Positions 15,691 to 20,277 of a DNA stretch of 40,493 nt are shown here, piece by piece; within the stretch, counting starts at the first letter, position 1; each line of letters begins with the position of its first letter. The DNA is taken from contig CAJWHT010000027.1 of NCBI GenBank assembly GCA_913041495.1, forward strand, positions 1 through 40,493, written 5' to 3'. The notes under the pieces are model-generated. The model had not been told where the DNA came from. It made no database searches and worked only from the letters and a program-made list of their open reading frames with translations. A program made the position numbers and the translations under genes. Source of the stretch: an uncultured Desulfobacteraceae bacterium (GTDB lineage Bacteria > Desulfobacterota > Desulfobacteria > Desulfobacterales > Desulfobacteraceae).

Positions 15691-16626
15691 TTAGAAGGGG
15701 CGGTCTGCCCCGCACAGACTCCCCTGCCAGGTATCCCGGGTTTCCAGAGTATGCTGGATCATGTTGAAGGTTTCCCTGTAGCGGCCTGCCCAGGCAGGGG
15801 CCTGAAGTTCACTGGCGTGGGGGTCCCCCGTGATCCGCTGGATGATAATGTGTTCGGGCAGCCGCTCTAAAAAATCGCAGACCAGATCCACGTAGGCTTG
15901 CTGCTCAAGGGGGGTATACTCCCCGGCCTGCCACATCCGGTCCAGTGGCGTATCTCTGATGACGTAAAGCAGATGGATCTTTACCCCGTTGACACCGCAG
16001 TCAGAGATGATTTTTGCAGCCTCCAGCATCATCTCCCGGTCTTCTCCGGGCAGTCCTAAGATGATATGGGCGCAGACATTAATGCCGGGCTTGCGGGTGG
16101 TCAATGCCATGGCCCGCTCAAAGGCGGCAAAATCATGCCCCCGGTTGATGCGGTCAAGGGTAACGTCGTGAACCGACTGAAGGCCGTACTCCAGCCAGAC
16201 CAGGTAATCTTTCGTATAGGAACGGATGATATCGATCTTTTCTTCGTCCACGCAGTCCGGCCGGGTGCCCACGGCCATGCCCACAACCCCCTCACAGGAA
16301 AGTGCCTCGTCATACATGGACTTCATATGGCCGGCGGAAGTATAGGTATTGGAATAAGACTGGAAGTAGGCCAAGAATTTCCTTGCCTTGTACTTCTTCA
16401 TGGCCGGCAGTTTCCCGGCTTCGATCTGCTCACGGATGCCAAGGCCCCGGCGAAAGGCCCCGGTACCGGAGCCCTTTGAATTGCAGTAAATACAGCCGAT
16501 ATCCGACAGGGAGCCGTCCCGGTTCGGGCAGGTCAGCCCCGCATCCACGGAAATTTTCTGGACCCGCTCCCCGTAAAGGTTGCGCAGATACGCATTATAG
16601 TCCGAATACCGTTTTTTCTTTTCCAT
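15691..16626 (-). CDS. yhcC: Radical SAM protein, YhcC family
   Basis: The protein has 311 residues. The cluster-binding cysteines are C33, C45 and C48 (CPNRDG, then GCIYCN). The wide first spacing is characteristic of the YhcC (TIGR01212) family and differs from the usual CX3CX2C. Other family marks are the YFQSYSNTY, VGTRPDCV, EYGLQSVHD and HIILGLPGED motifs. The family is widely conserved and of unknown reaction. GGAGAGGG precedes the ATG. It converges with the hydrolase gene and lies about 37 bases downstream of the STAS-like gene, so the two may form an operon. Confidence 0.92.
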   Translation of the reverse strand: MEKKKRYSDYNAYLRNLYGERVQKISVDAGLTCPNRDGSLSDIGCIYCNSKGSGTGAFRRGLGIREQIEAGKLPAMKKYKARKFLAYFQSYSNTYTSAGHMKSMYDEALSCEGVVGMAVGTRPDCVDEEKIDIIRSYTKDYLVWLEYGLQSVHDVTLDRINRGHDFAAFERAMALTTRKPGINVCAHIILGLPGEDREMMLEAAKIISDCGVNGVKIHLLYVIRDTPLDRMWQAGEYTPLEQQAYVDLVCDFLERLPEHIIIQRITGDPHASELQAPAWAGRYRETFNMIQHTLETRDTWQGSLCGADRPF

Positions 16627-16662: not shown

Positions 16663-17034
16663 TCAGGCGCAAAGAAACGCCTCTGCCTCCCCCGGCACCG
16701 TAAACACCCGGAAGTTGAATTTAAACATTTTCACCGCAGAGATGAACATCTTCACCATGGAGCGGTTCACCTCACCTGCCACCAGGATGGCGGACCGGTT
16801 GGCAAAGACTTCTGTCTCGGGCTTGTACATGTTGAACACCCTGACAATCTCGGTGAGATCCGAGAGCGTCATTCCCATCACCGCCTTCCTGCAATCCCAG
16901 TAGGAATGCTTGATATCATAATCCGGATGCCGCATCAATCGGCTGATGGCCTCGGACATGGAAGTCGCTTCCAGGCTGCCCGCCACCGTAATCCGGATAT
17001 ACCGGTCATGGCTGTCGTCCATTGAGTATAACAT
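16663..17034 (-). CDS. Small STAS/SpoIIAA-like protein of unknown function
   Basis: The protein has 123 residues. It is an alternation of strands and helices (YIRITVAGSLEATSMSEAIS, then TLSDLTEIVRVFNMY, VFANRSAILVAG and FRVFTVPGEAEAFL) resembling the SpoIIAA-like/STAS fold, with a closing strand and an EAEAFL helix. No phosphorylatable serine can be assigned with confidence. The ATG is preceded by GGAG at eight bases. An inverted repeat (GGGGTTAGCG / CGCTTAACCCC) lies in its upstream region around 17055-17121. A second protein of similar appearance lies at 34733. Confidence 0.6.
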   Translation of the reverse strand: MLYSMDDSHDRYIRITVAGSLEATSMSEAISRLMRHPDYDIKHSYWDCRKAVMGMTLSDLTEIVRVFNMYKPETEVFANRSAILVAGEVNRSMVKMFISAVKMFKFNFRVFTVPGEAEAFLCA

Positions 17035-17240
17035 GTGTCCGCTCCGGCAAAAGGGGGTTAGCGTTCTTCCATAATACCCGTTACGGCCTGTTTTTCCAAT
17101 ACCGGTTTGCCGCTTAACCCCTAAATTATTAAGCGCTTCAACAAAACAAGTATGATTAGATTATACGCGAATGATCAACTCAATTTGTCCTTTTCAGATA
17201 AAATTTTGTGACTATTTGTAAGACGATGACCATTATGCCA

Positions 17241-17420
17241 ATTACCCGGCAGCAACGGCGCAAGGGATCTTCGCTAAATCTCCGGCAGCCCCAAAAACCA
17301 CTGGTGAGCGGTTGACATGCCTGCCTACGAAGCGCGGCAACCGCCTCTTTCAGTCCGTGACGAGACGGCTTGCAGGACGCCACTCAAACCCTCACCCCGC
17401 CGCTGCCTGGCCCTCTTGGT
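17241..17420 (-). repeat. Structured long repeat, copy A
   Basis: Read on the minus strand, this 180-nt segment is homologous to 18138-18294. Shared blocks are CCA...GGCAGC...GGGGTG at the start, CGTCACGGACTGAAAGAG (17345-17362), CCGG/GATTTAGCG/TCCC (17264-17285) and an end of GCTGCCGGGTAA. The ends GGCAGC and GCTGCC pair with each other, and an internal stem (17308-17314 with 17338-17344, GCGGTTG/CAACCGC) is perfect. An open frame of 67 codons across it looks like a by-product. Confidence 0.7.
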
Positions 17421-17440
17421 GCGTTTTGTAAATTGATTAG

Positions 17441-17500
17441 ATCCTAAAATAAGGATTATAAAGTTTATGTGTTGTAAACGTGATTCTCTGGGAATCATGC
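17441..17500. other. Short hairpins downstream of the two-repeat gene
   Basis: This stretch holds two weak hairpins: ATCC/GGAT near 17442-17457, and TGATTC with GAATCA at about 17481-17497. They lie just beyond the stop codon at 17511 of the minus-strand gene. Neither has a clear T-run on that strand, so a terminator role is uncertain. Nothing else is visible between copy A of the repeat and the gene. Confidence 0.3.
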
Positions 17501-17510
17501 TTCTCCGGTA

Positions 17511-17873
17511 TTAAGTTGACTTTCGAATGAGGCCTCTTGCCTTACGATACTTATAGACAGCGTTTTTTGACTGCCCATAATTAAAACCGGCACTTTCTAA
17601 GTGTTTAATGCACTCCATACTGGTCTTATTTATCGCCTCAAACTTATCCAATATTTCGTCATACTCATTTTGCTTCATCCGATGTGTAAGTATTTGATGT
17701 TCCCCATGGTGCAAATAGATGTATGCACCGTTCTTGGCTTGTTGATAGCTCGCCCCTTCTTGAACAAGAATATCTTCACATTCAGTTTGCGATAGACCAT
17801 TTGTCCGGGCATGATATAAATCTAAGATACGAGAATACTCTTTTTGGCTAAATGTTTTAATTTCGTTTGCCAT
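17511..17873 (-). CDS. Two-repeat helical protein of unknown function
   Basis: The protein has 120 residues from the ATG at 17873, which has a very strong ribosome-binding site (GAGGAGGAG, six bases away). It consists of two tandem copies of one unit of about 50 residues. Residues 8-57 and 66-114 align as KEYSRILDLY/NEYDEILDKF, then ECEDILVQEGASYQQAKNGA with ECIKHLESAGFNYGQSKNAV, then YIY/YKY. The unit looks like a small helical bundle, and the second copy ends in basic residues (KYRKARGLIRK), so nucleic-acid binding is plausible. Base composition is much richer in AT than in flanking genes, suggesting acquisition by transfer. The gene sits alone between inverted structured repeats. I do not recognise the family. 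Confidence 0.7.
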   Translation of the reverse strand: MANEIKTFSQKEYSRILDLYHARTNGLSQTECEDILVQEGASYQQAKNGAYIYLHHGEHQILTHRMKQNEYDEILDKFEAINKTSMECIKHLESAGFNYGQSKNAVYKYRKARGLIRKST

Positions 17874-17907
17874 TATAATCTCCTCCTCGGTAAAATATCT
17901 TGTGAAC

Positions 17908-17937
17908 ATTATGGCAACATAACATACTGAAAATCAA
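17908..17937 (-). promoter_or_regulatory. Candidate sigma-70 promoter of the two-repeat gene
   Basis: On the minus strand, TTGATT (17932-17937) and CATAAT (17908-17913) are separated by 18 bases. Transcription would begin about 25-30 bases upstream of the ATG at 17873, leaving room for the strong ribosome-binding site. This fits an autonomous gene. Confidence 0.45.
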
Positions 17938-18137
17938 CGCATATTTTTGTACATTTGTCGTCACATTCTATAAACTAAAAAAGTCTATGCTGTTTAACGT
18001 AATATACTGTTGGCGTATCAAAAAATTTGCTTTAAGACTCATCTTTATGCCCTGTTTGACCGCCGGTTCTGAATACTCAGACTATCCGGTTTATACATAG
18101 TTAAACAGACGAAGAAATACAAACCCAACTCAGCAAA
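17938..18137. other. AT-rich intergenic stretch with an inverted repeat
   Basis: No gene is visible here. CTGTTTAAC (17990-17998) and GTTAAACAG (18100-18108) form a perfect 9-bp inverted repeat about 100 bases apart. The stretch is AT-rich like the neighbouring two-repeat gene and leads into copy B of the structured repeat. Confidence 0.4.
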
Positions 18138-18294
18138 CCAGGGGGACTAGGCAGCCGGTGCCGGGGTGGCCTGGAGCGTCGTAAATTCACTGGGCGTCAC
18201 GGATTGAAAGAACAGGGAATTTCCGATAGCCCGGCGATCAGGACGATCGCCGGGATTTTAGCGGAAGGTCCCGCGGGGCCGGCTGCCGGGTAAA
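18138..18294 (+). repeat. Structured long repeat, copy B
   Basis: This 157-nt copy lies in inverted orientation relative to copy A. It contains CGTCACGGATTGAAAGAA at 18195-18212 and CCGGGATTTTAGCGGAAGGTCCC-type sequence at 18250-18272. The ends GGCAGCCGG (18150-18158) and CCGGCTGCC (18279-18287) pair perfectly. A strong 10-bp hairpin, CCCGGCGATC (18230-18239) with GATCGCCGGG (18245-18254), occupies the middle. The pairing ends are kept in both copies although flanking bases differ, which suggests selected secondary structure. Confidence 0.7.
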
Positions 18295-18393
18295 AGCCCC
18301 CTCCCCATTGATTTCATAAATTCATACCCCTCGCAATTTAGACGGCGATGCAATCTTGACCAAAACCCCATAAGTATTGTATTTTAGGAGGTT

Positions 18394-20277
18394 ATGAATT
18401 TTTACAAAAACACATATGATATTATTGTGGTCGGGGCCGGTCATGCGGGGTGTGAAGCCGCGCTGGCAGGGGCTCGGATGGGGTGTGACACCCTGTTGCT
18501 GACCATTGATATGGATAAAATTGCGGCCATGCCCTGCAGCCCGTCCATCGGGGGGATGGCCAAAGGGCAACTGGTCAAGGAAATTGATGCCCTGGGCGGA
18601 ATGATGGCCCGGATTACGGACTCTTCTGCCATCCAGTACCGGACCCTGAATACCCGGAAGGGGCCGGCGGTCCACTCCACCCGGACCCAGAATGATAAGA
18701 ATATGTATGCCCGCCACATGAAGGCTGCCGTTGAAAAAACGGCGAACCTTGACCTCAAGCAGGCCATGGTGGAACGGCTGCTTATCGAGGATGACACGGT
18801 ACGGGGGATTACCGACCAGACCGGTTTTGAATACTTTGCCCCCTGCGTGGTGATCACCACGGGAACCTTTCTGCGGGGGACAGTGCATATCGGGGCGTCC
18901 AGAATCCAAGCCGGCCGGGCCGGGGAATTTGCCTCGGTGGGCCTGGGGCAGTCCCTGGAAGCCCTGGGGCTGACCATGGGGCGGATGAAGACCGGCACCC
19001 CGCCGCGGCTCCATGCGGACAGCATTGACTTTTCCCGGTTCAATATCCACGGGTCGGATGACAGCCCCACCCCCTTTTCCTACAGCACCACGGAAATCAC
19101 CACCCCCATGCTGCCAAGTTTCATGGGAGATACCAACGCGGATACCCACGAGATTGTCCGGCAGAACCTGAAACACTCCGCCCTGTACGGGGGGCATATC
19201 AAGGGGCAGTCCGCCCGGTACTGCCCTTCCTTTGAGGATAAAATCGTAAAATTCCCGGACCGGGAGAGCCATCATGTGATTCTGGAGTACGAGGGGATCG
19301 ACTCCAAGGAGATTTATGCCTCCGGTTTGGGCAACAGCCTGCCCCTGGAGATTCAGTACCAGGTGGTGCGCTCGGTCCGCGGGCTGGAGCAGGCCCAGAT
19401 CATGCGGCCGGCCTATGCCATTGAGTATGATTACGTCAACCCGCTGGAACTGACGCCGGCCCTTGAAACCAAGCGGGTCCGGGGGCTTTTCCTGGCCGGG
19501 CAGATCAATGGCACCTCAGGATATGAAGAGGCCGGGGCCCAGGGGCTGTGGGCCGGGACGAACGCTGCGGCAAAAGTCCAGGGCCGCCCCGCCTTTGTCC
19601 TGGACCGGTCCCAGGCGTATATGGGGGTGATGGTGGACGATCTTGTGACCCGGGGGACCAATGAACCCTACCGGATGTTCACCTCCAGGGCGGAATACAG
19701 GCTGCTGCTCAGAGAGGACAATGCGGATCTTCGCCTGGCTGAAACCGCATTTGAGTATGGATTGATCCAGCGGGAGGCCCTTGAATTCGCCAGGGAAATC
19801 CAGGCCCAGACCGCAGGGGAAATCGATAGGGTCAAACAGGCCGTGGTGAAGCCCACACCGGCAAACAACAACTTTCTGGAACAGCAGGGGTCCAATCCCA
19901 TCACCACCGGCGTCAAGCTGGAGCAATTGCTCAAACGCGCGGAGCTGAGCTATGCCAACCTGAGCACCATATCCCCTCCGCCGCAACCGGTCCATGACCG
20001 GGCTGCCCGGCAGGTGGAAATCGAAATTAAATACGAGGGGTATATCCAGCGCCAGTACAACGAAATTAAAAAATTCAGGGATCTGGAAAAAATCAGGATT
20101 CCCCAAGGGTTCTCCTTTGACGATGCCCATGGGCTCTCCAACGAGATCCGGGAAAAACTGAACCGGATCATGCCCGCCTCCCTGGGACAGGCCGCAAGGA
20201 TCGACGGCATGACCCCTGCGGCCATATCGGTGCTTATGGTTGCGATTACTGCCTTTCACCAGAACAAGACCCCTTGA
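18394..20277 (+). CDS. mnmG: tRNA uridine-5-carboxymethylaminomethyl modification enzyme MnmG (GidA)
   Basis: The protein has 627 residues, the usual length. With MnmE it installs the cmnm5 group on the wobble uridine of several tRNAs, using FAD and methylene-tetrahydrofolate. The FAD fingerprint [10 protein letters not shown] starts at G14. Conserved regions include [13 protein letters not shown] with C48, [35 protein letters not shown] and [14 protein letters not shown]. The ATG follows AGGAGG very closely. mnmE is not in the window. It heads a plus-strand series with the DnaJ-like, hpt and zinc-ribbon genes. Confidence 0.97.

Follow-up and report, generated by a model that had tools for sequence, protein, structure and literature searches.

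How did a low-GC island flanked on both sides by GC-rich copies of the same repeat come to lie between the yhcC side and mnmG in an uncultured sulfate-reducing bacterium of the order Desulfobacterales, and is it a unit that can move? We analyzed the locus in a window of 40,493 nucleotides (the whole stretch of DNA under study); this window is contig C27 in a draft assembly of 5.77 Mb and 328 contigs. Our preferred reading, to which we give roughly even chances, is that the island is a cargo cassette, non-autonomous and with structured ends, which a presumed enzyme encoded elsewhere would move in trans.

Layout of the unit and its cargo gene

To the left of the island lie yhcC (15691-16626) and a 123-aa gene with no family in Pfam (16663-17034), which adjoins the unit; to the right lies mnmG (18394-20277). 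The whole unit spans ~17190 to 18330. As originally predicted, it contains an AT-rich patch, with a GC content of 36.6% at 17457-18092 compared with 62% for each end copy and 54.5% for the whole window. The two long structured copies proposed to enclose this patch are also real. A single covariance model (R1, built on 20 copies) aligns the left structured end (LE) on the minus strand at 17240-17423 (120.7 bits) and the right structured end (RE) on the plus strand at 18134-18295 (168.5 bits; the feature itself extends to 18297), each a three-way-junction element that reads outward. LE and RE are both among the 20 training sequences of R1, and relatives of each were found independently by genome BLAST. 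The fold of LE draws further on the consensus of five LE copies, and that of RE on a folding z of -5.28. A conserved block, CGTCACGGAYTGAAAGA, recurs as had been noted, at 17346-17362 and 18195-18211 (94%).

The unit had been delimited by perfect 12-bp terminal inverted repeats. These are present as exact inverted copies (TTACCCGGCAGC at 17242-17253 in the left end module and GCTGCCGGGTAA at 18282-18293 in the right); however, they are not its termini. A sister unit, split over contigs C180 and C55 by the assembly, has both end modules in common with the window, and its homology runs ~50 bp past the left repeat and ~30 bp past the right one. The complete left module thus defined with the C180 part lies at 17192-17456 (85.3% over 265 bp), and the complete right module defined with C180/C55 lies at 18093-18325 (93.1% over 130 bp, 93.9% over 82 bp); from their ends, C180 probably continues into C55. 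Homologous short pairs in the same-genus genome G014 reach about 55/85 bp past the 12-bp repeats. As a signal, the repeats were ruled out by their count, which is at chance level: the window holds 8 perfect 12-bp inverted pairs 300-2000 bp apart, compared with a mean of 7.65 in 20 order-1 Markov shuffles.

The cargo gene predicted between the ends was found at 17511-17873 on the minus strand, with its ATG behind the strong ribosome-binding site GAGGAGGAG; from this start the product is 120 aa, and a 132-aa ORF call starts further upstream. Its own promoter, also part of the original prediction, is a consensus match only (TTGATT-18-CATAAT, minus strand, 17908-17937), of a kind found 5 times where 2.6 are expected. 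The protein is an orphan. It has no Pfam or NCBIfam family at E <= 0.01, its best match in the PDB has an E of 0.096, its PHROG (E 0.0028) and PADLOC (E 0.044) matches are weak, and tblastn found no viral relative. Its two halves are alike (37% over 46 residues, E 1e-6), and its predicted structure is all-helical at low confidence (mean pLDDT 59.0). It is cargo, and our guess is that it may be a small DNA-binding protein.

Fold and distribution of the repeat family

The end element has a three-way-junction fold with strong covariation on the outward-reading strand. When 31 distinct copies, of which 29 come from genomes other than the host, were aligned by sequence alone, 42 of the 52 pairs in the window's own predicted structure changed on both sides. 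Cells were paired at 84.3%, compared with a shuffle mean of 67.0% and 37-49% for slid versions of the structure, and on none of five measures did any of the 500 shuffles reach what was observed, although related sequences alone can beat such shuffles and the copies, collected by a structure-aware model, lean towards the fold. The consensus structure of the alignment itself gave higher figures (39 of 44 pairs, 88.2% of cells paired), as expected because it was fitted to that alignment. G-U cells outnumber A-C cells by 142 to 23 in a consensus that itself favors G-U, and the outward-reading strand is thus the folding strand.

The hairpin loops are conserved as well. CA(N)GGA is present in 70 of 74 copies and CAGGACG/CATGGACG in 52 of 74, while the second loop is CACGACG in 7 of 74. 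CsrA-like GGA motifs (CA(N)GGA, CAGGACG) thus occupy both hairpin loops, at 18195-18215 and 18240-18256 in the window and likewise in other copies.

Could the element function mainly as RNA, say as a decoy that binds CsrA, read outward from accessory genes and passively mobile through insertion sequences? The folding of the outward strand is consistent with this, as is the resemblance of the loops to those of CsrB, which are CAGGA(U/A/C)G in the passages of PMC7652899 cited here and which likewise place GGA motifs in hairpin loops. A carrier is at hand in G014, where a 1458-bp ISAs1 element (L172:2932-4389; NCBIfam E 3.6e-132) contains one copy that lies ~35 bp in from an end. Of 22 equal-scoring G014 copies, 8 were retrieved, and each of these sits inside this ISAs1 element, whose junctions show direct repeats of 9-10 bp, by eye, in 3 of the 6 printed. 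Copies can therefore hitchhike in ISAs1, and the high copy number of G014 is no proof of self-movement. However, a consensus scan of the unit found neither a terminator-like site nor, immediately before LE or RE, a promoter-like one, the CACGACG variant departs from the loop motif, and both outward pairing and exchanged cargo would be left unexplained. The element also differs from CsrB-type RNAs in having two motifs only, a position at cassette ends, and no Rfam match (Rfam 15, no model at E <= 10 over 17100-18400). We therefore consider the functional-RNA account improbable. In eight other loci, the sole Rfam match at gathering score was a cobalamin riboswitch outside the elements (L192:1696-1882, 115.2 bits), beside a pair in the same-genus genome G011.

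A genome-wide search for the long ends had been proposed as a check on the unit, and it returned many dispersed copies in the host and its relatives. BLAST of the RE copy in the host genome gave 23 matches at E <= 1 (17 below 1e-15, itself counted), and that of the LE copy gave 15 (seven below 1e-8, itself counted). The string GCTGCCGGGTA occurs 29 times there, compared with 2 for the reversed control; 16 of these occurrences are family members and 13 are unrelated to the family. R1 matched 23 sites in the host (two weak) and 40 in G011 at E <= 0.1, and 51 in G014 and 21 in G008 at E <= 0.01.

Beyond these genomes, presence is patchy. With strict filters, R1 matched 13 of 389 sampled genomes of the class, host included, all from the host's family; plain BLAST of 40 genomes matched only the host and G011. 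A wider model (R2) across 395 genomes of the phylum matched the host and four others (E 5.9e-7 to 9.2e-4). Three of these four, from another family of the phylum, carry a distant variant with the same two hairpins in 2, 2 and 4 copies, on a single strand per locus (L266:752-1959; L265:6309-11066; L268:1018-5800). The fourth match (G703) is without the core of the repeat and may be chance. The RE copy matched no plasmid or phage, and R2 matched none of nine viral contigs that contain the short core pattern. The folded repeat family is apparently undescribed: the literature searched gave no description of it, which does not prove its absence from print, and among the many exact repeats counted in PMC2702500 it is not one of those described in the sections cited here.

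Outward pairing and exchange of cargo

Copies of the element follow an orientation rule. Among 211 R1 matches in 13 genomes, neighbors within 3 kb were 17 (-+), 4 (++), 1 (+-) and 0 (--), and within 5 kb they were 18 (-+), 4 (++), 1 (+-) and 1 (--), so that 36 of the 211 copies stand in outward pairs; assembly breaks between contigs may conceal some mates. The bias persisted when six homologous G014 pairs were counted once ((-+) in 12 of 17, P = 1e-4) and in the host genome and G011 alone ((-+) in 10 of 11 neighbors within 5 kb, P = 8e-6). The mates of a pair are mostly of different types: in a tree of 74 copies, read by eye and resting on an alignment fitted to the covariance model, they fall on separate branches in 16 of 18 pairs. 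The exceptions are the C224 pair of G011, whose mates are sisters, and the pair at 904816 in G281, which is unclear. The RE type was found with at least three kinds of partner, and in G252 two near-identical mates form a pair 8.7 kb apart.

Sliding folding over 11 loci gave no left mate for single copies, and R2 found no mates in the host-genome loci. In 19 other loci, R2 contributed two mates, one in L190 that is truncated and one in L211 that is weak and lies 5.5 kb from its partner. A GC-rich block to the left of the C18 cargo, at most a putative end, partly resembles a block in C254. The six homologous pairs in G014 are ~565 bp long and fit a MITE (short, non-coding, inverted ends, many copies), while the window unit contains a gene. 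A TTTATCCGGTAT-like motif lies in direct orientation at both ends of these short units (L183:3013-3577 and homologues).

What lies between the mates differs from unit to unit. The sister unit shares both end modules with the window, but not the interior, and its cargo is a GIY-YIG protein. Other outward pairs enclose genes for HNH (C196), RES (G281), TerB and a periplasmic binding protein (G011), and an IS1634, while KilA-N, Fic, DUF4160 and DUF6414 genes stand beside single copies and a GNAT gene lies between (++) copies. Fic-like proteins occur in 4 loci, one of which was run against Pfam, and several neighboring genes are without any family.

The strongest opposing view starts from the same copies and takes them for a REP/BIME/ERIC-like dispersed structured repeat, in which ~160-bp copies are spread or kept singly, pairs are inverted doublets or neighbors with another cause, and the gene is incidental. 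Most copies are indeed single, four neighbors are (++), and the distant variant in the other family is unpaired and on one strand. ERIC/NEMIS-type repeats are non-coding, folded, intergenic and 100-200 bp long, and the element is like them in these respects. It differs in its strong orientation rule, its unequal mates and the exchange of cargo between common ends, best seen in the window and C180/C55; in addition, two relatives lack both a cassette and the element that belongs to it (see below). Taking both sides together, we regard the dispersed-repeat view as possible but doubtful.

To return to the cassette reading, the unit ends are diverged, outward-facing copies of one ~160-nt element, folded as a three-way junction on the outward strand. 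We propose that a trans-encoded enzyme would recognize these folded ends, in the form of RNA or of single-stranded DNA, and would move whatever stands between them; on such a mechanism accessory genes would change while the ends stay. A broader form of this proposal is an integron-like gene-capture system of the Desulfobacterales, whose trans recombinase would read two unequal three-way-junction ends on one strand (ssDNA or RNA), move any cargo and allow end types to be mixed; this we think rather unlikely. If the cassette reading is true, mobile genes of bacteria would have a recognition end of a new kind, in which a large, strand-specific fold with covariation takes the place of a short inverted repeat. 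This would help to explain how small genes of nuclease-, toxin- and defence-like kinds spread among sulfate reducers although no transposase is visible. R1 and R2 would then be a searchable signature for tracing the enzyme.

Absence from relatives and candidate movers

The unit is absent beside mnmG in relatives. Among 15 loci from relatives, 12 place yhcC next to mnmG (L220, one of these, has only a piece of yhcC), and the yhcC-mnmG gap is 137-262 bp in the 11 measured, which is too short for the unit. It was not seen in the three relatives' mnmG loci with other neighbors, and the R1 match lists of G008 and G011 hold nothing beside mnmG. The ends thus occur elsewhere too, pairs bracket genes, and the region is missing in relatives, so none of the outcomes that had been set against the original prediction occurred. 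On the right side, host-like sequence is back by about 18344. Because the 123-aa gene was not found in relatives' mnmG loci either, only this right side is constrained, and the left boundary at mnmG is undefined. The 123-aa gene (16663-17034) may be part of a larger insertion.

Similar differences were seen at other sites. A cassette with one element and the DUF6414 gene (C18) occupies 1.9 kb in the host genome, compared with 78 bp in G011 and 26 bp in G008 between the same neighbors, and cassette and element are missing together in both relatives. At the site of the C196 unit, G011 is about 3.6 kb shorter. Behind both comparisons is a search of four genomes that used 12 of the 20 flanks prepared; 6 of the 12 matched, and only these two gave both sides. 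Around the window and C180 units there are short similarities, none convincing as a target duplication, in agreement with the earlier remark that no target duplication is clear. Of the originally predicted small mobile unit, or cargo with paired ends, the cargo between structured ends, the lack of a transposase inside and the dispersed copies thus stand. Its mobility we still infer, because no target duplication is clear and only 36 of the 211 copies are in outward pairs.

Which known systems come closest? The ends of mobile insertion cassettes are those of a known IS, whereas here ~160-nt folded ends are tied to no IS and the cargo differs between units; an autonomous element bearing both of these ends was not seen, and the G014 ISAs1 has its single copy inside one end. 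The unit nevertheless resembles mobile insertion cassettes (MIC231 type, as named in the cited part of PMC6542083) in having a passenger gene between inverted ends, no transposase, and movement in trans if any. By analogy, it may work like a mobile insertion cassette and is a candidate member only.

REPINs, in the sections of PMC3116915 cited here, are a folded repeat found as singlets and inverted pairs, and our elements likewise are dispersed, folded and without a gene of their own. REPINs are, however, short and gene-free, and movement of REPIN-like units by a Y1 (IS200/RAYT-type) transposase fits the genomes poorly. At E <= 1e-4, Y1_Tnp has no match in G014, which has 51 copies, one match in the host genome (G000), and up to 24 where R1 matches nothing; G021 also has no match. 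A Y1 mover is unlikely given that 51-copy genome, and we find this alternative hardly credible.

The elements might instead be attC-like sites for an integron integrase, given cargo of an integron-like kind and tandem (++) neighbors in G281 and G011. Integron cassettes do carry accessory genes beside a strand-specific folded site, and attC core boxes read RYYYAAC and GTTRRRY. However, 0 of 69 copies had RYYYAAC near the 5' end together with GTTRRRY near the 3' end; the random control also gave 0 of 1380, so the result speaks for absence of the paired boxes and not for their depletion. Outward pairs at scattered sites are moreover at odds with cassettes that run in the same direction, and attC sites are thus a very improbable explanation.

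For the mover posited by the cassette reading, no recombinase common to several genomes appeared in the 26 ORF clusters printed (ORFs from 46 sources near elements), and no gene for a mover was found within a pair. The sole transposase between mates (L194), considered as an autonomous partner, was rejected: it belongs to an IS1634 that has 15-bp repeats of its own, and is therefore cargo. In L042, the sequence upstream of 8786, ahead of a single element, contains what by eye are an integrase-like ORF and pieces of an IS91-like transposase.

A motif of the C18 copy, which by eye reads as an inward sigma-70 promoter, returns ahead of three further right copies (C35a, C196, C217) with no more than 5 of its 22 positions mismatched, and in two more copies the version is weaker, by eye. 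In L049, L041, L050 and L055, a shared promoter-like motif lies before the right copy and reads from the end element into differing cargo genes.
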